This document shows positions 2,729 through 35,613 of a stretch of 64,000 bases of DNA, in pieces. Made by a program: the position numbers and the translations under genes. The DNA comes from Platanthera guangdongensis. Taxonomy: Eukaryota > Streptophyta > Magnoliopsida > Asparagales > Orchidaceae. Under the pieces are notes generated by a model. It was not told the DNA's origin. It ran no database searches and saw nothing but the letters and a program-made list of their open reading frames with translations. The stretch covers positions 88,038,564 through 88,102,563 of the forward strand of contig CM077166.1 of the NCBI GenBank assembly GCA_039583875.1, given 5' to 3'. Every line of letters starts with the position of its first letter. Within the stretch, counting starts at the first letter, position 1.

Positions 2729-2813
2729 AATTCTTGATAATTCTTGCAAGTAGAACTCCTTAGACCCGAACTTAAATTTCGGGGACGAAATTATTTTCTT
2801 GTTTATTGGAATT
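2729..2813 (+). other. Tekay-1 pol-LTR spacer with polypurine-type tract
   Basis: An 85-base spacer separates the pol stop from the 3' LTR. It contains the tttcggggacgaaatt block typical of plant gypsy elements just before the LTR, where plus-strand DNA synthesis is primed. Tekay-2 has the counterpart at 11045-11128 on the other strand, and gypsy-X has a similar tcgggacgaaatt block at 30700-30713. There is no coding sequence. Confidence 0.7.
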
Positions 2814-2894
2814 TGTAACATCCCATGTTACTTCTGGACCCCTCAACTTAGATTGGGTTAGGCCTAGGTGAGATTTAAGGAAGACCAACTATGT

Positions 2895-3256
2895 TTGACC
2901 CTAGGTAGTGGGTGGTAACCATGTGGGGCCCACTATAAGACCATAGTCAAACTAGGTCAAACTAGCCTATGTGGGGACCCTAGCCACACCATGACCCCAC
3001 CACATTGCCCTAACCCTAAAAACAATCTAAGTGGACCCTAGGGCATGTCACTAGGTCAACACTTTGACCCCAATTGACCAAAGTCAACCTTGGGCTTAAT
3101 TTGGTCAAATCCACACTCATAAGCCCAATTAGCCTAAGTAGGGCACCCCCTTGACCAAACCCAAGTTGGGTGGTGCCACTAGACCTATTACCACCAAGTA
3201 GGGTCAGCTCACCCACCATGGTTGACCAAGTCAACCCTAAAAGTCAATTTGGTCAA
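2895..3256 (+). promoter_or_regulatory. W-box cluster in Tekay-1 U3
   Basis: Thirteen TTGACC/TTGACT hexamers, counting both strands, lie in about 360 bases, for example at 2895, 2955, 3053, 3064, 3074, 3103, 3151, 3222 and 3251. Fewer than one would be expected by chance. TTGAC(C/T) is the core bound by WRKY transcription factors, which act in plant defence and stress. The last copy directly touches TATAAGG (3257-3263), a possible TATA box. Binding and promoter activity are inferred. Confidence 0.6.
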
Positions 3257-6000
3257 TATAAGGCCTAAAGAGAGAAAATGAGTGTCAAGCTCATTTCCAA
3301 TGGGCTAAGCCCATGAACCAAGACCCATGACCAGCCTTAATGGTTAATGACAGCCCCTACCCTCCTGAAATTGGAGAGAGATTGCATGCAAGGGGGTAGT
3401 TTGGGAAATTGGGGGAAAAAGAGGAGAGAGAAGGGAGGGAAAAGGGGATGAAGGCCATGTGGCCCTCCTCCTCTCTTCCCAAGCACAGATCTGAACCCAC
3501 ACATCAATTATCATCGTTTCCAACCCAATTTCATGCCACTTGGAGCCAAGGAGGAGAAACCAAAGCTCATGGCCGAAATTCCCATCATGGTATCTCTGTA
3601 TACAAGCCATATCAGCCAAAACCAACCATCCCATTAGCTTCAGACGGTCCGAAGGTGTGGAATTCGATACCTGGATCGAAGCTTTTGGTGGAGAATCGGG
3701 TTCGGGAGCAAGCTCGCCGGAGAGGAAAATTTCCATGGCCAACCGCCGCCAAACCCGCCGCCAAGCCCCAATTCAGGTCTGTTTCACCTCACCTCTACCC
3801 GTACTAGTTTCCTAGATCTATTAGGCGAGACATCGGGCTCAAATGAGCCAGATCCAAGGTGAGCTTTTCATGAATTTCAAATTTTTTGATGGAGTGCAAG
3901 TTCGCCGGAAACCGCCGCCTCCGGCGGCCAAGTCGCCGCCGAACGTTAGCCCTCACCTCAACGGAGGTGTTGGTGGTGGTGGCCGGCCAGGGAGGTGGTT
4001 GGGTGGCCGGTAAATGGCCTTGTAAGGTGCTCCATGTCGGGCAAATCGCGGCCCTTGGCTCCATGGAGAAGATGAACAGATGCCCTCCATTCTGCTTTAA
4101 GATTCGTGCCATATCAAATTTAATTTTCTGTCCCTCTTTTTGCTGTCACTTGCAAGCTAATTTTAGGCCTCTTAGAGGCATTTACAGAACTTAGTCTCTT
4201 ACTTAAAATTGTAGCTGATGGTCTTATCGTTAATGTGCCACCCTAAACATGTGATTTGGTGTAGTGTACAGTCCTGTAGGACATTTCTCCTAGGACTGGT
4301 CCTAGAGTAGGGCAAAAATTAAATTGGATGCCCAGGTCAAACCATTAGTCACCATGGCCCCACATTTTGGGCACATGCATGATTATGGCATACTTAGCCC
4401 CTGCCAAAAATTAGGAATTTTTAGAGAACATTTTCCTATAGTGTTTGCCAAAATATCAAAATACAAATAAATGAAATATATGGAGTTTTACACCTCCCCA
4501 TGGTCCCAAATCTTGGTGGTAGGTCAATGGGGACATCCTTGGTGCATGATGAAATTTTCAGCACCTTTGGTTCACTGTATGTTGGAGAATCCACTTGCAT
4601 GTGTTAGCTCATGTTATGCCTTGGTGTGCAATTAGCAAAAATGCAAATATAGTGTATTCAGCCAAATGGTGACATGTAAAGGTCTTGGAATTCTTTACAG
4701 TGGTTGATTAGGGTAAATTGCATCCCTCAAATTAATCATGGAATTTTTGGAATCAAAAATTCCATTTATTGGAATTTATTTTAAATATAGCTATTTTGGA
4801 AATAAAATTGGAAAATAGGTTTTCCTCACGTACAAATCCTAAAATTTTGCCAAGGCATATATAATGTCACATTTGACTTAGTAAAAATATGATCCCTCTG
4901 TTTTGAAGAACGTTTGGAGTAGATATCTTAAATTGCCCATTTTACCCTTGTCTTATTTAATTCTTGAAATGATGGATATGTACCTCAAAAAAATTTGGAA
5001 TTTATTCCACTGCTATAAAATGGTATTATTAGTTTTGCATGAATTTCTCAGAATTAATGGATGCATTGTTAGTTGCTAGATTAATATAATGGCATTTTTG
5101 GTAAATATGTTATAATGGAATTTTATAGGCCATTTCACAATAAATGTTGATGATACTCTGCCAATAGTCATAAATTAGTGTTCTAAAAGTTCTGTAATTT
5201 TCCTGGAATTGTTGATTACACAATTCCTATACTTCATTTGGAAAATGGAATTTGTGTGAATTTGATATTAAATAGGAAATGGGAATAAATAATTAAAGGA
5301 AAATTATGAAACTCTGTAGGCAACAATATTTTATCAATATACATCTCAGGAAACATTTCCTAGGTCAGTGGATATTTAATCATACTACTTCATGTGTAAA
5401 GTGACCTAGTGTTTAAATTAAAAGATTTAATTAAAGGACTATTTGGCCAAGAAAAATTATGAGAATTCATAGGGTAGTTCCCTTAGTCCATACCACCCTA
5501 GGATAAATATATAGAGGCAAGATGCCTTAAGGTTTGGAAAATCACATTTTTAAGGTAATCATAGGACATGGTCTGCATATAACACAAATAGGTCTTGCCT
5601 TAGGGGTTACCAGGGGATTGATTATCGGCAGAAATAAGAGAGTTCAACATGAGTAACCCTGGTGGGTAGAGTTGTCCTAGTGAGGGATCAAAAGTGCAAG
5701 TCTTAGTTAGCAACTGGAGTGGGGGTCGGCGGAAGACCGTCGGTTTCCCGGTAACACCTTAAGTCACTAGGGTTGTACTAGAGCAATAAGGAGAGCTGGG
5801 GAGATACATGGGTAGCCATCAACTAAAATAAATATCCTTGCGAAAGGGAACGCTGGGCGTAATCCCAACACAGTTCCTAGTGCCCCTTGAGAGCCCTTTA
5901 CAGGGAATACCGGGGGCAGTCCTGGGATTAACCTTAAATCTCTAAGTATAATAACCCGTAGACAAGAGTAGTTTAATAGGTTAGGACATTGTTGTACCTT

Positions 6001-6170
6001 CTCGCCCGTGTAGGGTTGGAGAGATTCATGATTTATGCTCACCCGTTTAGGGTTGGAGGGAGTTGGTATAAAGGCACTAATGTGCGTTCTCACCCGTTTT
6101 GGGGTTTGAGGGAGTTGGTATAAAGGCACTAACGTGCGTTCTCACCCGGGTTTGGGTTTGAGGGATTCAG
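6001..6170 (+). repeat. Minisatellite inside Tekay-1 LTR, about four units
   Basis: Units of roughly 40-55 bases built around ctcacccg...gggtttgagggagttggtataaaggcac are repeated about four times. Tekay-2 carries about three units at the equivalent place in each LTR, and Tekay-3 about three diverged ones, so copy number changes between family members. There is no coding role. Confidence 0.75.
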
Positions 6171-6360
6171 GACGGGTTTGGTCCTGCGAGCGGGAGGCTC
6201 GGAATGAATTATTTGCATGTGCATAAATATCGTGGCGGGGCATGCGGTACTGGTCGTTCGTCACAACGATGGCAGTGCGGTGCACCAGGCAGTTGTGAGA
6301 GTTAGAGGGGCCAGTGGGTTGTTTTACACTGTGGTCTGGAGGACGATCCCCGATAACACA

Positions 6361-6365
6361 CATCC
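6361..6365. other. Target site duplication CATCC, left copy
   Basis: CATCC directly precedes the TG of Tekay-2 at 6366 and is repeated at 20588-20592 directly after its final CA. Five bases is the usual duplication for Ty3/gypsy elements. It proves that Tekay-2 inserted as one unit into Tekay-1's LTR. Confidence 0.95.
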
Positions 6366-7689
6366 TGTAAGACCCCCCTCCCCCTTACCAAGGAGGGCAA
6401 CCGGATCTTATGCCCAGAACCGCCGTCTTACGGTGGCACTAACTCACGGGTTAGTCGACACCGCAACACGCCGATTCTGCCGGCTAGTACGATCATAAAC
6501 CTGTAGGCCAATATGAGAAGAAAGAAGTAAACTGTATATAAAAACCATCAGTCCACAAGTCACAGTACAATCATGTAAAAGAAATGAATAGTACAATAGT
6601 CCACAATATAGTACCAATGAAAGAGTAAAAAGGGCTTATGCCCAGTACATCAAATCTCTCTCTCACAAAATCATAAATGCGGAAGCTACACTAGAACATC
6701 AAGACTCGTCCCACCTGAGGACGCACAGTAGTGGTAGTAGCCTGCTGAAGCGGTATCTGCTCCTCATGTCCTGCCTCCTCGACGTGCTGGTGCTCCATCT
6801 CCACGGGCTCCTAAAAATAGTTGGTCACCGACCATTAGTCAAAAGACTAAGTCGTTTCCTCCGCACCTCGCCCCGCAGCTCCTAGGCACCGAGCGGGAGG
6901 ACGAAGCGGAGGACAACAAGGGGTAGCAAAATGGAAGCAGGTGACAATATCTATCTAGAGTGGTACTAAGTAATGAAATTCTACTCTAGCAATGCTAAGT
7001 ACAGTACAAGTAGTAAGTAAGAGCGGTGCAGTAAAGGAAAGTAAAGAAACACAGTATGAACAAGTAAATAAGCTAAGCTACCACTAAGCTATCATCGCAA
7101 ACGTACCCTAACTTATATAAATGCCCATACAAATATATAAGTTAGGGTTTCCAGGAAATTTAACTTATCATATAAAAGAGCCCATACTAATTTATATGAT
7201 AAGGATCTATGAAGCGTATGACCTAATATGAATGAATGATATGATGCAATTTTATACGCAGGCAAGTGCAACTCACACACAACGACTCTGTGATCACAGA
7301 CCTTTAGTTCCCACTTTTTGAGAGCTAGCATCACTCTCAGGTACCACCGCTGTGGCTACGGCAGCAGCAGAGCGGGCGTCTCCGCTTCTAGACCGGTATG
7401 CACACTACCAAGCCTTAGACCCCTCTCATATGCCTCTGTACACGTCCAAGGTGCACTCTAGAGTCTCGCGTACGTACTTTGCTGACAAACCCGTCAGTCT
7501 TGTTGGGTCGGATGTGTGTTATTGGGGGTCGTCCTCCAGACCACAGTGTAAAACAACCCACTGGCCCCTCTAACTCCCACAACCGCCTGGTGCACCGTAC
7601 TGCCATCGGTGTGACGAACGGCCAGTACCGCATGCCCCGCCACGATATTTATGCACATGCAAGTAATTCATACCGAGCCTTCCGCTCGC

Positions 7690-7840
7690 AGGACCAAAAC
7701 CCGTCCTGAATCCCTCAAACCCAAACCCGGGTGAGAACGCACATTAGTGCCTTTATGCAAACTCCCTCAAACCCTAGACGTGTGAGCATATATCATAAAT
7801 CTTTCCAACCCCCACACGGGCGAGAAGGTACAACCATGTC
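7690..7840 (-). repeat. Minisatellite in Tekay-2 3' LTR, about three units
   Basis: This is the reverse complement of the array at 6001-6170, with one unit fewer. The diagnostic block ccctcaaaccc...gggtgagaacgcacattagtgcc occurs twice, followed by a diverged third unit. Confidence 0.65.
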
Positions 7841-10592
7841 CTAACCTATTAAGCTACTCTTGTCTACGGTTTATTATACCTAGAGATTTAAGGTTAATCC
7901 CAGGACTGCCCCCGGTATTCCCTGTGAAGGGCTCTCAAGGGGCACTAGGAACTGTGTTGGGATTACGCCCAGCGTTCCCTTTCACAAGGATACTTATTTT
8001 AGTTGATGACTACCCATGTATCTCCCCAGCTCTCCTTATTGCTTTAGTATAACCCTAGTGACTTAAGGTATTACCGGGAAACCGACGGTCTTCCGCCGAT
8101 CCCCGCTCCAGTTGCTAGCTAAGACTTGCACTTTTAATCCCTCACTAAGACAACTCTACCCACCAGGGTTACTCATGTTGAACTCTCTCTTATTTCTGCC
8201 GATAATCAATACCCTGGTAATCCCTAAGGCAAGACCTATTTGTGTTATATGCAGACCATGACCTATGGTTACCCTAGAAATGTGATCTTCCAAACCTTAA
8301 GGCATCTTGCCCCTAAATATTTATCCTAAGGTGTTATGGACTAAGGGAACTACCCTAAGAATTCTCGTAATTTTCCTTGGTCAAATAGTCCTTTAATTAA
8401 TTCTTTTAATTTAAATGTTAGGTCACTTTACACATGAAGTAGTTTGATTAAGTATCCACTGACCTATGGAATTTTTCCTGAGATGTATATTGACAAAATA
8501 TTGCTGCCTACAGAATTTCATAATTTTCCTTAAATTATTTATTATCATTTTCAATTTAATATCAATTCCACACAAATTCCATTTTCCAAATGATGTATAG
8601 GCATTATGTACTCAACAATTCCAGAAAAATTACAAAGCTTTTAGGACACTAATTTATGACTATTGGCAGAGAATCATCAACATTCATTGTAAGATGGCAT
8701 ATAGGATTCCATTATAATATATTTACCAAAATGCCATTGTACTAACTTAACACAAATAATGCATACATTAAATTCTGAGAAATTTATGCAAGACTAATAA
8801 TAACATTTTATAGCAATAGAATAAATTCCAAATTTTGTAGAAGTATATATCCATCATTTCAAGAATTTACAAGATAAGGGTAAAATGGGGAATTTAGGGT
8901 ATCTACTCCAAACGTTCTTCAAAACAGAGAAATCATATTTTCCTAAGTCCAATGTGATCTCATATATGCCTTGGCAAATTTGTTTGAGTTTGTACTTGAA
9001 GAAACCCTATTTTCCAATTTTATTTCCAAAATAGCTATATTTAAAATAAATTCCAATAAATAGAATTTGATTCCAAAAATTCCATTATTAATTTGAGGGA
9101 TGAAATTTACCCTAATGAACCACTATAAATAATTTCATGACCCTTGCATGCCACCATTGGGCTAAATACACCAATTTGCATTTTTTGCTATTTGCACACC
9201 AAGGCTTAACATAGGCTAGCACATGCAAGTGGATTCTCCAACATGCATTGAACCCAAGGTGCTGAAAATTTTATCATACACCAAGGATGACCCCACTGAC
9301 CTACCACCAAAGTTTGGGGCCATGGGGAGGAGTAGAACTCCATATATGTCATTTATTTATATTTTGATATTTTAGCAAATACTATAGAACAATATTCTCT
9401 AAAAATTCCTAAATTTTGGCAGGAGATAAGTATGCCCTAATCATGCATGTGCACAAAATGTGGGGCCATGGTGACTAATATTTTGACCTGGGCATCCAAT
9501 TTAATTTCTGCCCTACACTAGGACCAGTCCTAGGATAAATGTCCTACAGGACTGTACACTACACCAAAATGTAAGTTTAGGGTGGCATATTAAAGGTAAG
9601 ACCCTAGGCTACATTTTTCATTAAGGGACTAAGTTCTGGAAATGCCTCTACGAGGCCTAAATTTAACATGTAAAGTAACTGAAAAAGTGTGACAGAATCA
9701 TACTATTCAATACATTTAATTAATTCATATTAATAATCTGCGCACGAATCTTAAAGCTTATCCGACGGGTTCTGGTCATCGTCTACCTCCAGCCAATGGC
9801 TGAGATCGAGCCGACCTGGAGCGACTTTGCCGGCGGTTTCCGGCCAACTGAGACGGCGCCACCTCCGGCCAACGGTGCCATCACCTTCACGGTGGTGGTG
9901 GCTATCATTTCCCGGCGATGGGGCGGCGGGAGACGGCAGCGATGGCGATCCCGAGCGGTTTCAAAAGCTTGGAATTCTCTCGATTTTCTCACATGGCATC
10001 GGGCTCAGTTGAGCCCGATATCTCTCCTATTTGATCTAAGAAGCTAGTACGGGTAGAGGTGAAGTGAAACGCACCTGAATCGAAGCTTGGCTGCGGGTCA
10101 GGCGGCGGTTTGCCGTGGTGGTGGTGCGCTGGCGAGCTCCACCCCGAAAGCTCAAATCTCCACCGTTCTCCATGATTAAGCAGTCGAATTCCACTCCTCT
10201 CTGCCTTCTGAAGCTAATGGTGAGCTCTGTTTGGACTTAGGTGGGCTATAAGTGGAGTTAACTCCAAGGTGAGCTCGTTTTGAGCTTTGGAGGTTTCACC
10301 CAGCTGCCATGTGGCTCACAGTCCTGGTATTCTTCTGGAAATGAAGAGGGGAGGTCAGCCACCTGGTTTTGGGCAGCCAAAACCAGCTGGTGGGGTGGCC
10401 ATGTGGCCATTATCCCTTCATTCCCCTTTCTCTCTCCTCTTTTCCTAAAAATCTCAATTTTACCCCCTTGCATGTACTCTCTCTCCTGATTTAGAGGGGT
10501 AGGACTGGTCTTGTTCACTTGGGCTGACTTTGGGCCAATTTTTAGTGGGCTTGGTCCAAGGGAACTTGGCTTGGCCTTCATTTCACTCTTTA

Positions 10593-10964
10593 GGTCAATT
10601 TGTTGACCAAATTGACTTTTAGGGTTGACTGGTCAACCATGGTGGGTGGACTGACCCCACTTGGTGGAAATGGGTCTAGTGGCACCACCCAACTTGGTTT
10701 GGGTCAAGGGGGTGCCCCACTTAGGTTAATTTGGCCTATGAGTGTGGGTTTGACCAAATTAAGCCCAAAGGTTGACTTTGGTCAATTGGGGTCAAAATGT
10801 TGACCCAGTGACATACCCTAGGGTCCACTTAGATTGTTTTTAGGGTTAGGGCAATGTGGTGGGGTCATGGTGTGGCTAGGGTCCCCACTTAGGCTAGTTT
10901 GACCTAGTTTGACTACGGTCTTATAGTGGGCCCCACATGGCTACCACCCACTTCCTAGGGTCAA
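10593..10964 (-). promoter_or_regulatory. W-box cluster in Tekay-2 3' LTR U3
   Basis: Fourteen TTGACC/TTGACT hexamers (either strand) lie in about 370 bases, including 10593, 10603, 10612, 10625, 10631, 10702, 10750, 10773, 10800, 10899 and 10959. They occupy the same part of U3 as in Tekay-1. The TATAAGG next to the Tekay-1 cluster is not preserved here; the position reads as another W-box pair. Confidence 0.6.
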
Positions 10965-11044
10965 ACTTAGTTGATCTCCTTAAGTCTCACCCATGCCTAA
11001 CCCAATCTAAGTTGAGGGGTCTAGAAGTAACATGGGATGTTACA

Positions 11045-11128
11045 AATTCCAATAAACAAGAAAATAATTTCGTCCCGAAATTTAAGTTCGGGTCTACAGG
11101 GTTCTAATTGCAAGAATCATCAAGAATT
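11045..11128 (-). other. Tekay-2 polypurine-type spacer
   Basis: This is the spacer between the pol stop (11129) and the 3' LTR. On the - strand it carries the same aaatttcgggacgaaatt block as the other chromoviruses in the window. It is the expected site of plus-strand priming. There is no gene. Confidence 0.7.
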
Positions 11129-14100
11129 TTAAAGACATAACTTAAATGTACCTGATGCGAATAGCTCCGGGTGTTGCTCCAGCATCAGATCCCTCGGCTC
11201 CCAAGTGTGCTCCTCCCGTCCATGGTTGGACCACAGCACCTTCACAAGAGGGACCTTCTTCTTCCGCAACACTCGGATGGCTGTATCGTCAATCCGGATC
11301 GGCTCCAATCTCACTGATCTGTCAGGCTCTACCAGTCCGGCTGTAGTAGTAATGTGCTGCTCCGGCCGAAGGAGAGCTCTTCGCAATGAAGAGACATGGA
11401 AGACATCATGTAGTGCACCCAACTCCGGTGGCAGCTGCAGTCGGTAAGCTAAGGGGCTGATCCGCTCCAGGATCAGGTAGGGCCCCATGTATCGTGGACT
11501 GAGCTTCTTGTGCCTCCGCACCCGTGAAACACCGTGTGCTGGACGTATATTCAAGAATACCCTGTCTCCAACCTGGAACTCCACCTTCCGGTGCCGAGCA
11601 TCATAATACTTTGTCTGCCTGCTCTGGGCCTCCAGTAGCCGATCCCTGATCAATCGAATCTGAGCCTCAGTGTCCTCTATATAATCAGATCCCAGAGCCC
11701 TGGTATCCACATCCTGAACCCATGACAGCGGTGTCCGGCATCTCCTCCCATAAAGCGCCTCGTATGGAGCCATCCTAATGCTAGCCTGGTGGCTGTTATT
11801 ATACGAGAACTCGATCAATGGCAGCAGCCTCTCCCAAGGCCTCCCCGTATCCAATATGCATAATCTGAGCAGGTCCTCCATGGTCCGGATTGTCCGCTCG
11901 GTCTGTCCGTCGGTCTGCGGGTGGAAGGCGGTACTAAAGGTAAGCCGAGATCCCAAATAAGCATGCACGGCCCTCCACTCGCTCGAAGTGAACCGACCAT
12001 CACGGTCCGAAACAATAGTCCTGGGGATACCATGATATCTGATGTACTGCTCCACAAATAGTCTCACCAGGACTACAACTGGGGCATCCTTCCGAACTGG
12101 AATAAACTGCGCTACCTTGGTCAATCTGTCCACTATAACCCATATAGAATCATGCCCAGAGTGGGAGCGAGGCAATCCGTGTACAAAGTCCATAGCAATG
12201 TCCTCGAACTTCCACTCTGGAACCGGCAGTGGCTATAGTAAACCTCCCGGGCTCTTGCATTCCGCCTTCACACGTTGGCAGGTCTCGCAATGGGTCACAA
12301 AATCCGTAATCTCCCTCTTCATCCCGGGCCAATACATAGATCTCCGCAATTCTGCCCACATCTTGGTGATGTCGGGGTGCACTGAATATCCCGAGCAATG
12401 TGACTCTCGGAGTATGTCCTCCCGGATACTGCCTCCTGCTGGTATGTAGATGCGTCCCCGGAACCTAAGAAGATCATCCTGTAGCATGTAGTCCTCGACC
12501 CTGCCCCTCTCTAAGGCACTGAAAATCGGCTGTAACGCAGCATCCAGCCTCTGATGTGCTCGGATGCGCTCCTGTATATCATCTCCGCTGATCACTGAGC
12601 TCAAATACTCTCTATAAACAACTAGCTCAGTCTCGGACACCATGGTAATGTGCATGTCCTCCATCATCTGTAGCAGCTCTAAACACATCAATCGGGGCTC
12701 CGGTCCAGAAGTGCCGGCCCTCCGGCTCAAAGCATCCGCAACCGTGTTCGCCTTCCCCGGGTGATAGTGGATCTTGTAATCATAATCACAGAGGAACTCC
12801 AGCCACCTCCTCTGTCTCAGGTTTAGGTCCTTCTGCGTATCGATATATTTGAGATTCTTGTGATCTGAAAAGATGTCACAATGAATCCCATATAAGTAAT
12901 GCCTCCATATCTTTAGGGCGAAAACCACAGCCCCGTGCTCTAGATCATGTACTTGATAGTTATGCTCATGCTTCTTCAACTGTCTCGAAGCATAAGCAAT
13001 AACGTGTCCATGCTGCATCAGGACTGCACCCATCCCCTGATAAGAGGCGTCCGTGTAGATCTGGAATCCTTCGCTCCCGGATGGAAGCGCAAGGATGGGG
13101 GATGAGATGAGTCGGTCCTTCAGCTCCTGAAAAGCAGTCTCACACCGCTCTGACCAAACAAAATCTGTGTCCTTCTTCGTCAAGGACGTGAGGGGGAGTG
13201 CTATCCTCGAGAACCCCTCCACGAACTTGCGGTAATACCCTGCTAGTCCCAAGAAACTGCGGATGTCAGAAGCGGTCTTCGGCCGTGGCCAACCCCTCAC
13301 CGTCTCTATCTTGGCTGGGTCCACAGCTAACCCAGCCCCACTGATCGTGTGCCCCAGGAATGCCACCTCCTGCAACCAAAACTGGCACTTTGAAAATTTT
13401 GCATACATCTGTGTCTCCCTTAGCCTCTGCAAGACCTGTGCCAAGTGCTCCGTATGCTCCTCCTGAGTCCGAGAATATATAAGGATGTCGTCGATGAACA
13501 CAATCACGAAGCGGTCTAAGAAAGGCTCGAATACACGGTTCATTAGACTCATGAATGCAGCAGGAGCATTCATGAGCCCAAAAGACATCACCGTGAACTC
13601 GTATAGTCCATAGCGCGAACTGAATGCCGTCTTCGGTATGTCCTCTTCCCTGATACGGAGCTGATAGTAGCCGGATCGCAAATCTAACTTGGAGAACCAG
13701 AATGCTCCCTGTAGCTGGTCAAATAACTCATCTATCCGAGGCAGAGGATAGGTGTTGCGGACCGTCAACCGGTTCAGCTCCCGGTAATCTATATATAATC
13801 GCAGTGATCTGTCCTTCTTCTTCACAAAGAGAACTGGCGCTCCCCATGGCGATGAACTAGGCCGCACAAATCCTGACTCGACTAGATCCTGTAGTTGAGT
13901 CCTGAACTCTGCTAACTCCCTAGGAGCCATCCTGTAGGGTGCCCTGGACAACGGCCTCGCTCCCGGTACTAGCTGAATCCTGAAATCCAAGTCTCTAGCA
14001 GGTGGTAGCCCGGGCAATTTCTCCGGGAACACGTCGGATAAATCCCGGACCACCAGAATATCTGAGATAGTCGCCTCTGTTCCCACCATCTCGAAGCAGA

Positions 14101-14529
14101 CAATATAGACTTCTTCACCCTGCTCATGGGCCTTCACAGCCTGTATAGAAGATAACAGTAGGTGGCAGATAGACTGGATACCTTCAACGATAACATGAGA
14201 GTCGCCATGTCTTAGCGTGATCCTCCTGGACGGGCAATCTATCTGGGCATGGTTCCGATGCAACCAGGCCATGCCCAAGATCAAATCAAAGTCCTGTAGC
14301 TTCAGAATGGTCGCCGGCGCCTCAAATGCCTTGCCGCCAATCTCGGCCTCCATATCACAATGTGCAGTGGTCCGCAGCTCCGATCCATCGGGTAGACGTA
14401 CCCTCATCTCTAGTCCAGGGAACCTCTCCACGCCTTCGAGTCCGTCGATGAAGGCCTCGGATACGAACGAGTGTGAAGCACCCGTGTCGAAGAGAGTATG
14501 AGCGGGCTTGCCGCTGATCATAACTATGC
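11129..14529 (-). pseudogene. pol: Tekay-2 pol: protease, RT, RNase H, integrase, chromodomain
   Basis: This is the polyprotein of a Ty3/gypsy chromovirus. After the intron acceptor, exon 2 begins at 14529, and the first Met is at 14521. In order: aspartic protease with DTGASHSF at about residue 12 after that Met; RT with [10 protein letters not shown] and the catalytic FIDDIL (aspartate codons 13487-13492); RNase H with [10 protein letters not shown]; integrase with an HHCC zinc finger (CETCQR), DDE residues in AMDFVHGL, SDRDGRF and TERTIRTM; and a chromodomain-like tail (VKVLWSNHGREEHTWEP). One TAG at 12233-12235 replaces the CAG seen in Tekay-1 between the zinc finger and the catalytic core; otherwise the frame is open for 1,130 codons. 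In the finger HPGIT reads HPDIT. Confidence 0.93.
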
Positions 14530-14629
14530 CTGAGGTTTGTTTATGTGAAAGTTAATTGTTATCCTATAGTTCCAGGTACTAAATATATATCATTGAAATC
14601 CAAGAAAATTCATAATTAACTTCAGGTAC
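14530..14629 (-). other. Probable spliceosomal intron between gag and protease (Tekay-2)
   Basis: On the - strand the exon ends ATCACAG at 14630 and the segment starts GTACCTG (14629) and ends CCTCAG (14530), followed by GCATAG. It is 100 bases, strongly AT-rich between GC-rich coding flanks, as plant introns are. Removing it joins gag (frame of 14630) to protease (frame of 14521) through a split Gly codon, giving the VITG-I-V-x-I-SG order expected across the gag/protease joint of this lineage. Without removal, gag reads GGT ACC TGA and stops. Tekay-3 has the same arrangement at 35507-35613. Splicing itself is inferred, not observed. Confidence 0.72.
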
Positions 14630-15747
14630 CTGTGATAACCTCCTCGGGATTTCTCGGCTCTGTGAGGTCCAAGGCGTATATCTGCTCCTGCTCGCGTCTC
14701 CTGCCGTGATATCCCCGACCTCGGCCTCGTCCTCGGCCTCGTCCTCAGCCCTGCTGTACTGGGGCCACTGGAGGTGGAGGAGGAGGAGGGGGATGGAATC
14801 GGTGCGGGCACTCCGACCTGATGTGCCCGGGCTGGCGGCATCGGTAACAAACCACTTGTCGATGGCCTCGGTCATCCTGTCTCCTTGGATCATGCATCTG
14901 TAGAGGTGGGGGAGCCAATGCTGGAGGAGGTACCTGCTCCTGCCTGAAGTTGGGACGACGACGTCCCCCACCCCTCCTGTATCCGATGGTCCTGCCTCTC
15001 TGAGAGCCCCTACTGCTCTCACCTGATGTCGATCCATCAAATGGTCTCTTCCATCCGGCTCGCACCATCAGCTGGTCAGCCTCCAGCTTCTTCGCCATCT
15101 CTATGATCTGCCTGGATGTGCCATGAGAAATGAATAGCAGAGCCTGCCTCAAATCATCCCTGAGGCCCCGGTAGAACCTCTTCGCATACCTCCTATCGTC
15201 GGTGTCCTGAATCCCCGCGAACCTGGCCAAGTGGGAGAACTCTCTCTGGTACTCTATCACTGATCTAGTCCCTACTTGAGGTTCAAAAACCTCTCCTCCA
15301 AAGCATCCCTGTCCGTAGCAGAAACGAAGTGCTCCAGAAACACATCGCCAAACTCCTCCCAAGATATCTCTGATAGCTCAAAGTCCGCATAAGTAGACGC
15401 CCAGACTGATTTCCACCATCTCTTTGCATGAGCCTCTAGCACAGAGGTGGCTAGGGGTACTGCCTGGCCGATTGGGCAGCTGATGCCCGCTAAGATCTCG
15501 TGTATGGCCTCCAGCCATTCTTCCATCTTCACCGCATCCTCTGTCCCACGGTACGTCGGTGGGGACAAGCTCTTGAATGCACTCAGCCAGCTCGACCCCG
15601 GATTTGGCTGTGGAGCCGGGACTTGCTGGGCTCTAAAGGCATCCAAATCGCCGTCAGGGTCTGCCCCATCTCCGTATGTAGGAATGGAGTGGCAGCTGGA
15701 GGGGGAGGAGCCACATTTTGCGGCGCTGCGACCTGTGGAGGTTGCAT
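14630..15747 (-). pseudogene. gag: Tekay-2 gag (frameshifted)
   Basis: This encodes the coat protein of the virus-like particle. The start is the ATG at 15747 (MQPPQV), 183 bases after the 5' LTR; Tekay-3 has the same start. The retrotransposon Gag core is recognisable (EWLEAIHEIL, then EFGDVFLEHFVS, EYQREFSHLARF, LRQALLFIS), followed by a CX2CX4HX4C zinc knuckle (CYRCRQPGHIRSEC, about 14808-14849) and an arginine-glycine-rich tail. The frame changes near 15640 and again near 15280. A TAG follows LNLK at 15272-15274, and a TGA lies at 14745-14747. The second frameshift is shared with Tekay-3. It is not functional as it stands. Confidence 0.88.
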
Positions 15748-15930
15748 AAAGGTAAGGTTAAAACAAAATTGGCCTAAAATATTGTACTTTGTGGACCATT
15801 TATGTGACTTTACACCTGGGTACACCACTGCTTCCGCTGCATAGTTTGTCCGCAAACTGATGCTCGGGCGGGGGTGGTGCCATGTTGTGGACTTCTTTCT
15901 CATATGATCGTTGTTCGAGTGATACCAGTT
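15748..15930 (-). other. Tekay-2 untranslated leader with primer-binding site
   Basis: This is the 183 bases between the 5' LTR and the gag ATG. Three bases after the LTR end the - strand reads TGGTATCACTCGAAC (from 15927 down). The first eight bases match the complement of plant initiator tRNA-Met (TGGTATCA), the usual primer of plant gypsy elements; the following bases do not match it. Tekay-3 has TGGTATCACTTGAAC at the same distance, so the short match is a family trait. Confidence 0.75.
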
Positions 15931-17267
15931 TGTAAGACCCCCCTCTCCCCTTACCAAGGAGGGCAACCAGATCTTATGCCCAGAACCGCCGTCTTACGGT
16001 GGCACTAACTCACGGGTTAGTCGACACCGCAACACGCCGATTCTGCCGGCTAGTACGATCATAAACCTGTAGGCCAATATGAGAAGAAAGAAGTAAACTG
16101 TATATAAAACCATCAGTCCACAAGTCACAGTACAATCATGTAAAAGAAATGAATAGTACAATAGTCCACAATATAGTACCAATGAAAGAGTAAAAGGGCT
16201 TATGCCCAGTACATCAAATCTCTCTCTCACAAAATCATAAATGCGGAAGCTATACTAGAACATCAAGACTCGTTCCACCTGAGGACGCACAGTAGTGGTA
16301 GTAGCCTGCTGAAGCGGTATCTGCTCCTCATGTCCTGCCTCCTCGACGTGCTGGTGCTCCATCTCCATGGGCTCCTAAAAATAGTTGGTCACCGACCATT
16401 AGTCAAAAGACTAAGTCGTTTCCTCCGCACCTCGCCCCGCAGCTCCTAGGCACCGAGCGGGAGGACGAAGCGGAGGACAACAAGGGGTAGCAAAATGGAA
16501 GCAGGTGACAATATCTATCTAGAGTGGTACTAAGTAATGAAATTCTACTCTAGCAATGCTAAGTACAGTACAAGTAGTAAGTAAGAGCGGTGCAGTAAAG
16601 GAAAGTAAGAAACAGCAGTATTAACAAGTAAATAAGCTAAGCTACCACTAAGCTATCATCACAAACGTACCCTAACTTATATAAATGCCCATACAAATAT
16701 ATAAGTTAAGGTTTCCAGGAAATTTAACTTATCATATAAAAGAGTCCATACTAATTTATATGATCAGGATCTATGAAGCGTATGACCTAATATGAATGAA
16801 TGATATGATGCAATTTTATGCGCAGGCAAGTGCAACTCACACACAATGACTCTGTGATCACAGACCTTTAGTTCCCACTTTTTGAGAGCTAGCATCACTC
16901 TCGGGTACCACCGCTGTGGCTACGGCAGCAGCGGAGCGGGCGTCTCCGCTTCTAGACCGGTATGCACACTACCAAGCCTTAGACCCCTCTCATACGCCTC
17001 TGTACACGTCCAAGGTGCACTCTAGAGTCTCGCGTACGTACTTTGCTGACAAACCGTCAGTCTTGTTGGGTCGGATGTGTGTTATCGGGGGTCGTCCTCC
17101 AGACCACAGTGTAAAACAACCCACTGACCCTCTAACTCCCACAACCGCCTGGTGCACCGTACTGCCATCGGTGTGACGAACGGCCAGTAACGCATGCCCC
17201 GCCACGATATTTATGCACATGCAAGTAATTCATACCGAGCCTTCCGCTCGCAGGACCAAAACCCATC

Positions 17268-17395
17268 CTGAATCCCTCAAACCCAAACCCGGGTGAGAAC
17301 GCACATTAGTGCCTTTATGCCAACTCCCTCAAACCCTAGACGGGTGAGCATATATCATAAATCTTTCCAACCCCCACATGGGCGAGAAGGTACAA
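17268..17395 (-). repeat. Minisatellite in Tekay-2 5' LTR, about three units
   Basis: This is the same array as at 7690-7840, in the partner LTR, with the same unit number. Confidence 0.6.
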
Positions 17396-20136
17396 CCATG
17401 TCCTAACCTATTAAGCTACTCTTGTCTACGGTTTATTATACCTAGAGATTTAAGGTTAATCCCAGGACTGCCCCGGTATTCCCTGTGAAGGGCTCTCAAG
17501 GGGCACTAGGAACTGTGTTGGGATTACGCCCAGCATTCCCTTTCGCAAGGATACTTATTTTAGTTGATGACTACCCATGTATCTCCCCAGCTCTCCTTAT
17601 TGCTTTAGTATAACCCTAGTGACTTAAGGTATTACCGGGAAACCGACGGTCTTCCGCCGATCCCCGCTCCAGTTGCTAGCTAAGACTTGCACTTTTAATC
17701 CCTCACTAAGACAACTCTACCCACCAGGGTTACTCATGTTGAACTCTCTCTTATTTCTGCCGATAATCAATACCCTGGTAATCCCCTAAGGCAAGACCTA
17801 TTTGTGTTATATGAGACCATGACCTATGGTTACCCTAGAAATGTGATCTTCCAAACCTTAAGGCATCTTGCCCTAAATATTTATCCTAAGGTGTTATGGA
17901 CTAAGGGAACTACCCTAAGAATTCTCGTAATTTTCCTTGGTCAAATAGTCCTTTAATTAATTCTTTTAATTTAAATGTTAGGTCACTTTACACATGAAGT
18001 AGTTTGATTAAGTATCCACTAACCTAGGGAATTTTTCCTGAGATGTATATTGACAAAATATTGCTGCCTACAGAATTTCATAATTTTCCTTAAATTATTT
18101 ATTATCATTTTCAATTTAATATCAATTCCACACAAATTCCATTTTCCAAATGATGTATAGGCATTATGTACTCAAAAATTCCAGAAAAATTACAAAGCTT
18201 TTAGGACACTAATTTATGACTATTGGCAGAGAATCATCAACATTCATTGTAAGATGGCCTATAGGATTCCATTATAAGATATTTACCAAAATGCCATTGT
18301 ACTAACTTAACACAAATAATGCATCCATTAAATTGTGAGAAATTTATGCAAGACTAATAATAACATTTTATAGCAATAGAATAAATTCCAAATTTTGTAG
18401 AAGTATATATCCATCATTTCAAGAATTTACAAGATAAGGGTAAAATGGGGAATTTAGGGTATCTACTCCAAAAGTTCTTCAAAACAGAGAAATCATATTT
18501 TCCTAAGTCCAATGTGATCTCATCTATGCCTTGGCAAAATTGTTTGAGTTTGTACTTGAAGAAACCCTATTTTCCAATTTTATTTCCAAAATAGCTATAT
18601 TTAAAATAAATTCCAATAAATAGAATTTGATTCCAAAAATTCCATTATTAATTTGAGGGATGGAATTTACCATAATGAACCACTATAAATAATTTCATGA
18701 CCCTTGCATGCCACCATTGGGCTAAATACACCAATTTGCATTTTTTGCTATTTGCACACCAAGGCTTAACATAGGCTAGCACATGCAAGTGGATTCTCCA
18801 ACATGCAGTGAACCCAAAGTGCTGAAAATTTTATCATGCACCAAGGATGACCCCACTGACCTACCACCAAAGTTTGGGGCCATGGGGAGGAGTAGAACTC
18901 CATATATGTCATTTATTTATATTTTGATATTTTAGCAAATACTATAGAAAAATATTCTCTAAAAATTCCTAAAGTTTGGCAGGAGATAAGTATGCCCTAA
19001 TCATGCATGTGCCCAAAATTTGGGGCCATGGTGACTAATATTTTGACCTGGGCATCCAATTTAATTTCTGCCCTACACTAGGACCAGTCCTAGGAGAAAT
19101 GTCCTACAGGACTGTACACTACACCAAAATGTAAGTTTAGGGTGGCATAGGCTACATTTTTCATTAAGGGACTAAGTTCTGGAAAGGCCTCTAAGAGGCC
19201 TAAATTTAACATGCAAAGTAACTGAAAAAGTGTGACAGAATCATACTATTCAATACATTTAATTAATTCATATTAATAATCTGCGCACGAATCTTAAAGC
19301 TTATCCGACGGGTTCTGGTCATCGCCTACCTCCAGCCAACGGCTGAGATCGAGCCGACCTGGAGCGACTTTGCTGGCGGTTTCCGGCCAACTGAGACGGC
19401 GCCACCTCCGGCCAACGGTGCCATCACCTTCACGATGGTGGTGGCTATCATTTCCCGACGATGGGCGGCGGGAGACGGCGGCGACGACGATCCCGAGCGG
19501 TTTCAAAAGCTTGGAATTCTCTCGATTTTCTCACATGGCATCGGGCTCAGTTGAGCCCGATATCTCTCCTATTTGATCTAAGAAGCTAGTACGGGTAGAG
19601 GTGAAGTGAAACGCACCTGAATCGAAGCTTGGCTGCGGGTCAGGCGGCGGTTTGCCGTGGTGGTGGTGCGCCGGCGAGCTCCACCCCGAAAGCTCAAATC
19701 TCCACCGTTCTCCATGATTAAGCAGTCGAATTCCACTCCTCTCTGCCTTCTGAAGCTAATGGTGAGCTCTGTTTGGACTGAGGTGGGCTATAAGTGGAGT
19801 TAACTCCAAGGTGAGCTCGGTTTTGAGCTTTGGAGGTTTCACCCAGCTGCCATGTGGCTCACAATCCTGGTATTCTGCTGGAAATGAAGAGGGGAGGTCA
19901 GCCACCTGGTTTTGGGCAGCCAAAACCAGCTGGTGGGGTGGCCATGTGGCCATTATCCCCTTCATTCCCCTTTCTCTCTCCTCTTTTCCTAAAAATCTCA
20001 ATTTTACCCCCTTGCATGTACTCTCTCTCCTGATTTAGAGGGGTAGGACTGGTCTTGTTCACTTGGGCTGACTTTGGGCCAATTTTTAGTGGGCTTGGTC
20101 CAAGGGAACTTGGCTTGGCCTTCATTTCACTCTTTA

Positions 20137-20507
20137 GGTCAATTTGTTGACCAAATTGACTTTTAGGGTTGACTGGTCAACCATGGTGGGTGGACTGACC
20201 CCACTTGGTGGAAATGGGTCTAGTGGCACCACCCAACTTGGTTTGGGTCAAGGGGGTGCCCCACTTAGGTTAATTTGGCCTATGAGTGTGAGTTTGACCA
20301 AATTAAGCCCAAGGTTGACTTTGGTCAATTGAGGTCAAAATGTTGACCCAGTGACATACCCTAGGGTCCACTTAGATTGTTTTTAGGGTTAGGGCAATGT
20401 GGTGGGGTCATGGTGTGGCTAGGGTCCCCACTTAGGCTTGTTTGACCTAGTTTGACTATGGTCTTATAGTGGGCCCCACATGGCTACCACCCACTTCCTA
20501 GGGTCAA
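20137..20507 (-). promoter_or_regulatory. W-box cluster in Tekay-2 5' LTR U3
   Basis: This repeats the cluster of TTGACC/TTGACT motifs described for the 3' LTR. In the 5' LTR it lies upstream of the element's own genes, where it could act as an enhancer responding to WRKY factors. No clear TATA box is seen beside it. Function is inferred from motif density only. Confidence 0.55.
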
Positions 20508-20587
20508 ACTTAGTTGATCTCCTTAAGTCTCACCCATGCCTAACCCAATCTAAGTTGAGGGGTCTAGAAGTAACATGGGATGTTACA

Positions 20588-20592
20588 CATCC
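20588..20592. other. Target site duplication CATCC, right copy
   Basis: This copy follows the final CA of Tekay-2 and is identical to 6361-6365. From 20593 the Tekay-1 LTR resumes (gacccaataagactgacgg). Confidence 0.95.
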
Positions 20593-21743
20593 GACCCAAT
20601 AAGACTGACGGGTTTGTCAGCAAAGTACGTACGCGAGACTCTAGAGTGCACCTTGGACGTGTACAGAGGCGTATGAGAGGGTTCTAAGGCTTAGTATTGT
20701 GCATACCGGTCTAGAAGCGGAGATGCCCGCTCCGCTGCTGCCGTAGCCACAGCGGTGGTACCCGAGAGTGATGCTAGCTCTCAAAAAGTGGGAACTAAAG
20801 GTCTGTGATCACAGAGTCGTTGTGTATGAGTTGCACTTGCCTGCGCATAAATTGCATCATATCATTCATCCATATTAGGTCATACGATTCATAGATCCTT
20901 ATCATATAAATTAGTATGGGCTCTTTTATATGATAAGTTAAATTTCCAGGAAACCCTAACTTATATATTTGTATGGGCATTTATATAAGTTAGGGTATGT
21001 TTGTGATGATAGCATAGTGGTAGTTTAGTTTATTTACTTGTTCATATTACTGTTCTATACTTTCCTTTACTGCACTGCTCTTACTTATTACTTGTACCGT
21101 ACTTAGAACTGCTAGAGTAGAACTACATTACTTTTTAGAACTCTAGTTAGATACTGTCACCTGCTTCCACTTTGCTACCCCTTATGTTGTCCTCCGCTTC
21201 GTCCTCCCGCTCGGTGCCTAGGAGCTGCGGGGCGAGGTGCGGAGGAAACGACTTAGTCTTTTGACTAATGGTCGGTGACCAACTATTTTTAGGACCCCGG
21301 GGAGATGGAGCACCAGCACGTCGAGGAGGCAGAACATGAGGAGCAGATACCACTTCAGTAGGCTACTACCACTACTGTGCATCCTCAGGTGGGACGAGAT
21401 CTGATGTTCTAGTATAGCTTTCGCATTTATTATTTTGAGAGAGAGAGTGATTTTGATGTACTGGGCATAAGCCCTTTTTACTCTTTCATTTGTACTCTTC
21501 TGTGGACTATAGTGATGTACTTTTCATTTCATTTATTGTATTATGTGGCTTGTGGACTGATGGTTTTACATACAGTTTTACTTCTTTCTTCTCATATTGG
21601 CCTACATGTTAAATGATCGTACTAGCCGGCAGAATCGGCGTGTTGCGGTGTCGACTAACCCGTGAGTTAGTGCCACCGTAAGGCGGCGGTTCTGGGCATA
21701 AGACCCGGTAGCCCTCCTTGGTAAGGGGGATGGGGGTCTTACA
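20593..21743 (+). repeat. Tekay-1 3' LTR, second part (to LTR end)
   Basis: This continues the LTR broken at 6365. It is the reverse-complement homologue of about 15931-17090 in Tekay-2, and includes the block with gccggcagaatcggcgtg and the terminus gggggtcttaca at 21743. No genes are seen. Confidence 0.9.
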
Positions 21744-22971
21744 CACCACACCCCCAGACTTAACTTTTAACATATGGGTGTGTGCACAACCTACTCCAAA
21801 AATACTCACATCTCAAATAAGACTTTCAATTTTACTTTTACTTTTCATTTTTTTCACAATTAACATCATTTTTCAATTTTTTTTAACTGTTCTTTTTTTT
21901 TTCAAATTGCTTCTCTTTTATCAATTTCAGCAAAAATAAGCTTTGGAGCACATCCACATATTCACATGTAAAAGCACCACATCAACACCCCAACATGAAA
22001 AATGTAAAACTCTAAAGCTGGACTTGGGAGTGCGACTAGGATCGGCTTTGAGGCTTTGGTGAAATAAAGGTGGAGCTGAATCAAAAGAATGGGTAGGCAC
22101 AACGGGGCTAGCAAGGATAAGACGTTAGGAACGGTACAAAGCTCAACCGTGTCAAAATGATGGCCTATATCACACTCATGCGAGTGAACAAACATATACC
22201 CATGCTTCAAGAATAGCTTGGGGCAGGTTCTTAGCCAACGAGAAAGACTATCCATCCTCCCGACTCGAGCAATACGAACCTAATGGCCGTCTACACACAT
22301 CCCTAAGCTACCGTCGGATTCACACCAGATTCACCAATTTTTGAGTAGAATAAAAAGTATTTACGCAATTAAAAAAATATAAAACTAAAAGCATACAGAA
22401 AAATTAAATCTACTCTAATTTCTACACGAGACAATAGCACTCGACTAGGAGCACAGCAGGGTCAACATTTTACCCTGTCTCACAATCCTAAGCCAACACC
22501 ATAATTTTCCCAAATCTAACGAAGAAATGAGTTTAACTTGCGGCACACAAATAACTAAGCACGCGCTCAAGTGGGTGCAGTGGTGTGCACATGAGATGTG
22601 TACGTGCAAAAGGTAACAAAACTGGCTCTCCCCCTAGATTTAAACTAAACTACACACCATATGATAGAGAAATTAAGATCATAAAGAGCTAAGGGAAGAG
22701 GTTACCCAATGCTCAACTAGTGATCATACTAGAAGATGCGTGGAAACCTGAAGCATGCCCGCCATACGAAGAATCACAACCCCGCCAATGCGATTTTCCA
22801 TGAATACCTGCAGGGGTGAGCTCTGCAAAAACAAAAGAAAAATATACAAAAAGAAATGCTAAAACTAAAATAGACATGAAAATTAAAAATGCAGGAAATA
22901 TAAGATAACTACTGGGGTTATTGTCATCCCAGCACGACTTATTAAATTCTATACAATTCAAGCTAATGGGC
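21744..22971 (-). other. Athila-1 3' non-coding region
   Basis: There is no gene. The sequence is homologous to 42138-43300 of Athila-2, including a repeated motif that on the - strand reads aagtctggggg/aagtctggtggtg (at 21750-21763 here), which resembles a polypurine tract, and a T-rich stretch. Such long 3' regions without an envelope gene are common in Athila relatives. Confidence 0.65.
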
Positions 22972-35506: not shown

Positions 35507-35613
35507 CTGAGGTTGATTGAGTTTCAAATGGGTAGGCATTTTTCGTGGTAAAGATTATGTAAAATAGTAATACTAAAGGAACATGTCTTAATTTCATAAC
35601 ATAAATTATATAC
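35507..35613 (-). other. Probable spliceosomal intron between gag and protease (Tekay-3)
   Basis: The exon ends ATCACAG at 35614. The segment begins GTATATAATTT (35613) and ends CAACCTCAG (35507), followed by GCATAG. It is 107 bases and AT-rich. It sits at exactly the same codon as the 100-base segment in Tekay-2, with the same split Gly codon, but the interior sequence is very different. Unspliced, gag would read GGT ATA TAA and stop. Removing it puts protease in the gag frame. Boundaries are conserved while the interior is not, which is how introns evolve. Confidence 0.7.

Follow-up and report, generated by a model that had tools for sequence, protein, structure and literature searches.

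To our knowledge, it is an open question how plant Ty3/gypsy elements that encode a single-frame polyprotein make enough Gag. The locus described here, in a 64,000-nt stretch of the Platanthera guangdongensis genome (hereafter, the window), raises the question of whether the segment that separates the gag and protease frames of an LTR retrotransposon is an intron, the retention or removal of which would decide between Gag and Gag-Pol. The reading that we favor, with a probability of roughly 0.8 for its parts taken jointly, is that a phase-1 spliceosomal intron interrupts the Gly codon at the Gag-protease joint, and that its retention would lead to Gag and its removal to Gag-Pol. The parts of the element, with positions in the window and with slashes marking the borders of the segment, are as follows.

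6366 to 20590, minus strand: complete family-A insertion, an LTR retrotransposon (boundaries placed by eye after self-BLAST with the 5' LTR)
15931 to 20590, minus strand: 5' LTR, TGTAACATCC...CTTACA, 4660 bases
15920 to 15927, minus strand: start of the primer-binding site, TGGTATCA, read from the sequence
14630 to 15747, minus strand: gag exon, from MQPPQ... to ...EEVIT plus base 1 of the Gly codon, with a zinc knuckle; frame broken in the window copy
14530 to 14629, minus strand: putative intron, CAG/GTACCT at the 5' border and AACCTCAG/GC at the 3' border, 28% GC
14622 to 14624, minus strand: in-frame TGA that would end Gag upon intron retention
14551 to 14555, minus strand: TTAAC, a candidate branch point by resemblance only, read from the sequence about 22 nt upstream of the 3' border
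12233 to 14529, minus strand: pol exon with the remainder of the Gly codon, protease (RVP_2), RT, RNase H and the integrase zinc domain (Pfam, translation)
11129 to 12193, minus strand: core and C-terminal portion of integrase, including a weak match to a chromodomain; a separate ORF in the window copy (Pfam)
6366 to 11047, minus strand: 3' LTR, 4682 bases
35507 to 35613, minus strand: corresponding putative intron of a diverged family-B copy, 107 nt

Two LTRs, the GGATG target-site duplication at both ends of the insertion (6361-6365 and 20591-20595; boundary sequences read by eye) and the Pfam domain order RVP_2, RVT_1, RNase H, integrase identify the family-A element as a Ty3/gypsy LTR retrotransposon. 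It is likely a chromovirus on its Pfam domain content, which includes a chromodomain match in pol (PF00385, E 9.3e-4, 19.5 bits) that is weak and lies below the 25.1 cut-off. The Tekay name given in the initial annotation is a provisional lineage label. We take CRR of rice, to which we return below, to be a chromovirus. The start of the primer-binding site is presumably of the initiator-Met tRNA type. The LTR pair is 97.97% identical over 4687 columns of the self-BLAST (63 mismatches, 32 gap positions), and at the grass rate of 1.3e-8 substitutions per site per year, this divergence gives the window element an age of roughly half a million years, to be read as an order of magnitude only. The nearest proteins found were those of the orchid Platanthera zijinensis.

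Some further observations concern the surroundings of the joint. The pol of the window copy is split into two ORFs at 12193-12233 (minus strand), in a region through which a plus-strand relative (1127-2728) reads. The LTR of a related plus-strand element, at 2811-6365 and 20585-21746, seems to host the family-A insertion, the two forming an inverted nested pair. In the leader before gag (15747-15860, minus strand), a further intron could extend from GTGTAAAG to a downstream CCACAG (by eye), and the gag models of P. zijinensis have an N-terminus that is longer than that of the window gag and different from it.

Read from 14629 to 14530 on the minus strand, the segment between gag and protease comprises 100 nt, GTACCTGAAG...AAACAAACCTCAG, and with its exon edges it reads CAG/GTACCTGA...AAACCTCAG/GC. 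The initial annotation had described it as an AT-rich stretch running from GT to CAG between the two frames, and both the borders and the composition were confirmed (GC 0.28 against 0.54 in the flanks; U 0.35 against 0.20). The gag frame enters the segment as ...EEVIT GT followed by a stop (GGT ACC TGA), at the third codon past the junction as annotated, and the protease frame resumes beyond it as (G)GC ATA GTT ATG, so that the Gly codon is split G/GC after its first base. The 5' border, GTACCT or GTACTT, agrees with the splice consensus at its start only.

The gag frame upstream of the segment is not open in the window copy, where a frameshift and stops occur at 15270-15290 (minus strand). 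A conserved frameshift inside gag, first suspected in families A and B, was rejected as private damage of this copy, because 20 other fetched family-A copies are not disrupted at the same place. The family-A copy L026 has an insertion of its own in gag. The gag frame is uninterrupted up to the stop in the segment in 7 of the 20 other copies (whole stretch read), it enters the segment as GT and a stop in all 21, and 19 of the 21 have no stop in the 142 codons of the protease frame that were read.

The 4.25-Gb genome (274 contigs) was searched for related copies. For family A, 40 matches were scored and 20 of the 39 others were fetched, and for family B, 40 were scored and 10 of the 39 others, spread across the list, were fetched; both queries contained the segment, which favored copies that had kept it, and the family-A sample could thus not show its absence. 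A third sample comprised 23 pieces, each 10 kb long and taken from fixed positions, which were searched by tblastn with a few gag-protease proteins. Three readable joints were present in these pieces, all with a segment, in L043 (family C), L034 (family D) and L051 (family E), and these three families, represented by one copy each, were thereby found without the bias of a segment-holding query. No gag-protease joint was found in L049, the left flank of the window, or in L044, which has pol; the pol matches in the sampled pieces L030, L039, L047 and L050, about 30% identical, belong to other lineages.

All five Ty3/gypsy families have an interruption in this split Gly codon, at an identical position and in the same phase (21 copies of A, 11 of B, and one each of C, D and E). 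Alignment of the copies for GT and AG, a check that the initial annotation had called for, gave GT...AG in 21 of 21 family-A copies, with lengths of 100-102 nt and both borders kept in all 20 of the other fetched copies. In family B, where the segment is 107 nt long in 11 of 11, GT is present in all 11 and AG in 10, the exception being the decayed copy L058, which has lost it; GT...AG also occurs in C, D and E. The lengths are 118 nt in C, 77 nt in D and 77 nt in E (the last by eye), giving a range of 77-118 nt for all families. D and E, whose 77-nt segments interrupt one and the same codon, form a more distant group in which VISG replaces VITG; E is about 50% identical to A over protease-RT-RNase H, and D is 29% identical over the protease of a decayed copy.

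The GC content of the segments is 0.27-0.34 against 0.42-0.54 in the flanks, and U is raised in all four families measured, although the segment of the decayed D piece ranks 139 of 1800 for AT-richness in its surroundings and is not the top. Comparison of A, B and C gives 65-83% identity in the flanks, while the interiors are not clearly alignable between families: the real alignment score was reached by 19 of 200 shuffles for A-B, 74 of 200 for B-C, 143 of 200 for A-D (a comparison in which the D end was placed one base off) and 5 of 200 for A-C, the pair that keeps some likeness. Flank differences between A and the 11 B copies amount to 0.204, 0.077 and 0.473 at the three codon positions, a pattern that points to protein constraint on both sides. 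Within B, the segment is less variable than its flanks (0.061 against 0.093-0.110), perhaps because the GC-rich exons of old copies have decayed, and this does not speak for free drift of the intron inside this family. Across families, GT...AG is conserved at a fixed codon around a free interior, as in a spliceosomal intron.

The damaged gag of the window copy would be in keeping with an artefact or with decay, that is, with an unrelated AT-rich insertion in a dead element. This explanation is hardly credible and was refuted by the counts of copies and families together with the coding constraint on both flanks: all 32 copies fetched for A and B have the segment (both window copies included; segment-holding query), as do three more families found without query bias.

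Intronless copies, the search for which had also been proposed initially, were sought with an exon-exon probe of 200 nt taken from the two flanks of family A, and 40 of 1944 candidates were scored. The segment is lacking in 15 of these 40, which match as a single piece over 194-200 nt with identities of 99, 97, 97, 96, 96, 95, 95, 94, 94, 90, 88, 88, 88, 87 and 85%; the probe design favors intronless copies, so 15/40 is no estimate of their share, and their membership in family A rests on the 200 nt around the joint. In 14 of these copies, the match occupies as many bases in the genome as in the query, and in the remaining one it is a base shorter in the genome. The other 25 matches fall into two pieces and are intron-bearing, with segments of 95, 97, 101, 102, 103, 105, 107 and 111 nt (101 nt in 12 of the 25); the length is a multiple of three in only four of the 25, and all three remainders occur.

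At the level of the joint itself, GTNATCACAG/GCATAGTNNTNATCAGCGG with up to three mismatches was found 874 times genome-wide (453 + 421), against a single match for the reversed control. Thirteen joint matches are exact, and eight carry family A's own letters (exact 29-mers), all eight belonging to the 15 intronless copies; the joint letters (29 nt) were read for 11 of the 15, and the other four rest on spans. Another intronless type, ATCACAG/GTATAGTCTTC, that is, ATCACAG/GTATAG followed by CTTC or similar, accounts for dozens of the near-matches listed.

The initial annotation had counted absence of the segment from related copies against an intron. Such copies do exist, but their absences are exact at both borders and so support splicing instead: at identities of up to 99%, they would be the expected trace of reverse-transcribed spliced RNA. 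They could also have come from recombination with an intronless family, though the A-type bases reach the joint. Border conservation across diverged families, lengths that fix no frame and intronless copies ending exactly at the borders strongly support the interpretation of the segment as an intron, and it is very probably a spliceosomal one.

Ribosomal frameshifting or re-initiation across the AT-rich spacer could join gag and protease without splicing; many Ty3/gypsy elements frameshift between gag and pol (PMC3735527), and an ATG is located a few codons into the family-A pol frame. Such a mechanism is nevertheless highly improbable here and was largely refuted by the spacer lengths, the missing ATG and the exact intronless copies. 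At 95-111 nt in the 25 matches, the spacer falls into every length class modulo three, which rules out a fixed frameshift between the frames; B and C have no such ATG (IVFISG and IVSING); and a spacer serving either purpose would not be missing exactly at these borders elsewhere.

The dozens of listed joints that share the other intronless type invite the opposite order of events, in which one lineage has kept these joints from an older condition, other lineages acquired the intron, and the A-like intronless copies arose through inter-family recombination. This history appears rather improbable, since the codon and phase common to A-E, despite the approximately 50% identity of E to A, favor one old intron, and family A's own bases reach the joint on both sides (eight exact 29-mers; up to 99% over 200 nt). 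Starting from one old spliceosomal intron, it can be suggested tentatively, at somewhat less than even odds, that the group has repeatedly yielded intronless offspring via spliced RNA and that one such line has proliferated and needs some other means of balancing Gag and Pol.

The protein linkers are in line with the excision that had been proposed to fuse gag and protease in frame through one Gly codon. In P0005, P0011 and P0012, the linker is uninterrupted and has the spacing of family A, with 13 residues from VYA[LVI] to Gly and 11 from Gly to LFD (by eye), and the equal distances indicate that intron removal would cost no residue. P0004 agrees with A only downstream of the Gly, being three residues shorter upstream, and P0010 is shorter at the linker. 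The comparison was made at the protein level, where some entries are gene models perhaps spliced by prediction. P0008, a Gag model of P. zijinensis, ends VITGTCKIY, as would be expected for reading into such an intron. P0001 and P0002 of the same species, considered as spliced gene models, may equally be continuous ORFs of an intronless type and were not counted; no relative was found in the viral contigs scanned with P0002. As separate observations, P0003 (Sinapis) carries five residues more than P0004 (Raphanus) precisely where gag meets protease, which may stem from an intron of a crucifer element that was retained or wrongly modelled, and P0005 is a plant-type retrotransposon Gag-protease on a 3405-bp contig deposited as Escherichia coli, which is probably plant contamination.

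If the segment is spliced in this way, two RNAs with distinct products would be predicted. Upon retention, the gag frame would end at the third codon past the junction in A (TGA) and B (TAA), one codon earlier in D, and after 14 codons in C and 16 in E (the latter by eye); the unspliced RNA would thus encode Gag and would serve as the template for reverse transcription. Upon removal, gag would be fused in frame to protease-RT-RNase H-integrase, no residue being gained or lost, and the spliced RNA would encode Gag-Pol. Since the unspliced RNA would code for Gag only as far as the intronic stop, Gag-Pol would have to come from spliced RNA, and we infer that splicing is partial and would set the Gag:Gag-Pol ratio.

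The initial annotation had assigned Gag and the genome to unspliced RNA and Gag-Pol to a spliced minority. This proposal gains from the in-frame stop and from the young copies: among those at least 98% identical to the window copy of family A, at least 40 have the segment and one lacks it, which suggests that most of the family-A RNA reverse transcribed recently was unspliced. It is weakened by the intronless relatives, which manage without the intron; their number indicates that not every relative requires the intron, and from the intronless types it is evident that control of the ratio by splicing is not the only way.

A real intron might also act without any such switch, with the protease releasing Gag from Gag-Pol and the intron separating translated (spliced) from packaged (unspliced) RNA or aiding export. 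The intronless copies and the dozens of joints of the other type imply that a separate Gag product may be dispensable there, and the later stop of the retained frame in C and E points the same way; however, the stop at the third codon in A and B means that the unspliced RNA would encode only Gag, whatever its purpose. A role confined to packaging or export is unlikely, though it keeps appreciable weight, and the choice between Gag and Gag-Pol by retention or removal of the intron is preferred.

The arrangement differs from those of known spliced elements. Ogre, of the Tat lineage of Ty3/gypsy, has its intron between protease and RT, whereas the intron proposed here has 77-118 nt and lies between gag and protease; in family A it is located upstream of protease, and hence is not of the Ogre type, and the primer-binding site is initiator-Met-like. 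A second close parallel is BARE1 of Ty1/copia, described as having a facultative, U-rich intron of 104 nt near the end of gag that decides between Gag and Gag-Pol, and as coexisting with a non-splicing sister, BARE2 (PMC3735527). The sign is opposite, because the stop, and with it Gag, is produced by splicing in BARE1 but would be produced by retention here. Rice CRR is a Ty3/gypsy element with a spliced RNA (PMC3735527), but there splicing removes RT and does not concern a gag/protease joint. EVADE and the short-GAG isoforms of sunflower Tyran/Varan similarly involve splicing that gives distinct RNAs in plant LTR elements (PMC12786077, PMC7730604), although these are copia elements in which the short GAG RNA arises via splicing and early termination. 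Bianca has two ORFs about 172 bp apart (PMC6317226), but belongs to the copia superfamily, and the gap is not called an intron in the accessible part of that source, which gives one ORF for most groups and names Ogre and Bianca alone as separated; gag and pol are split in the element described here. According to a 2025 review, plant LTR elements are generally intronless, with Ogre and EVADE as notable exceptions (PMC12786077). An intron between gag and protease in such elements was not found in the literature covered, which consisted of titles and abstract openings and included few subscription journals.

The presence of intron-bearing and intronless relatives in one genome allows a direct comparison of what splicing contributes to the supply of Gag, to the choice of RNA for packaging and to copy number. 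The intronless copies would, at the same time, constitute an in-genome record of how often spliced RNA gets packaged and reverse transcribed.
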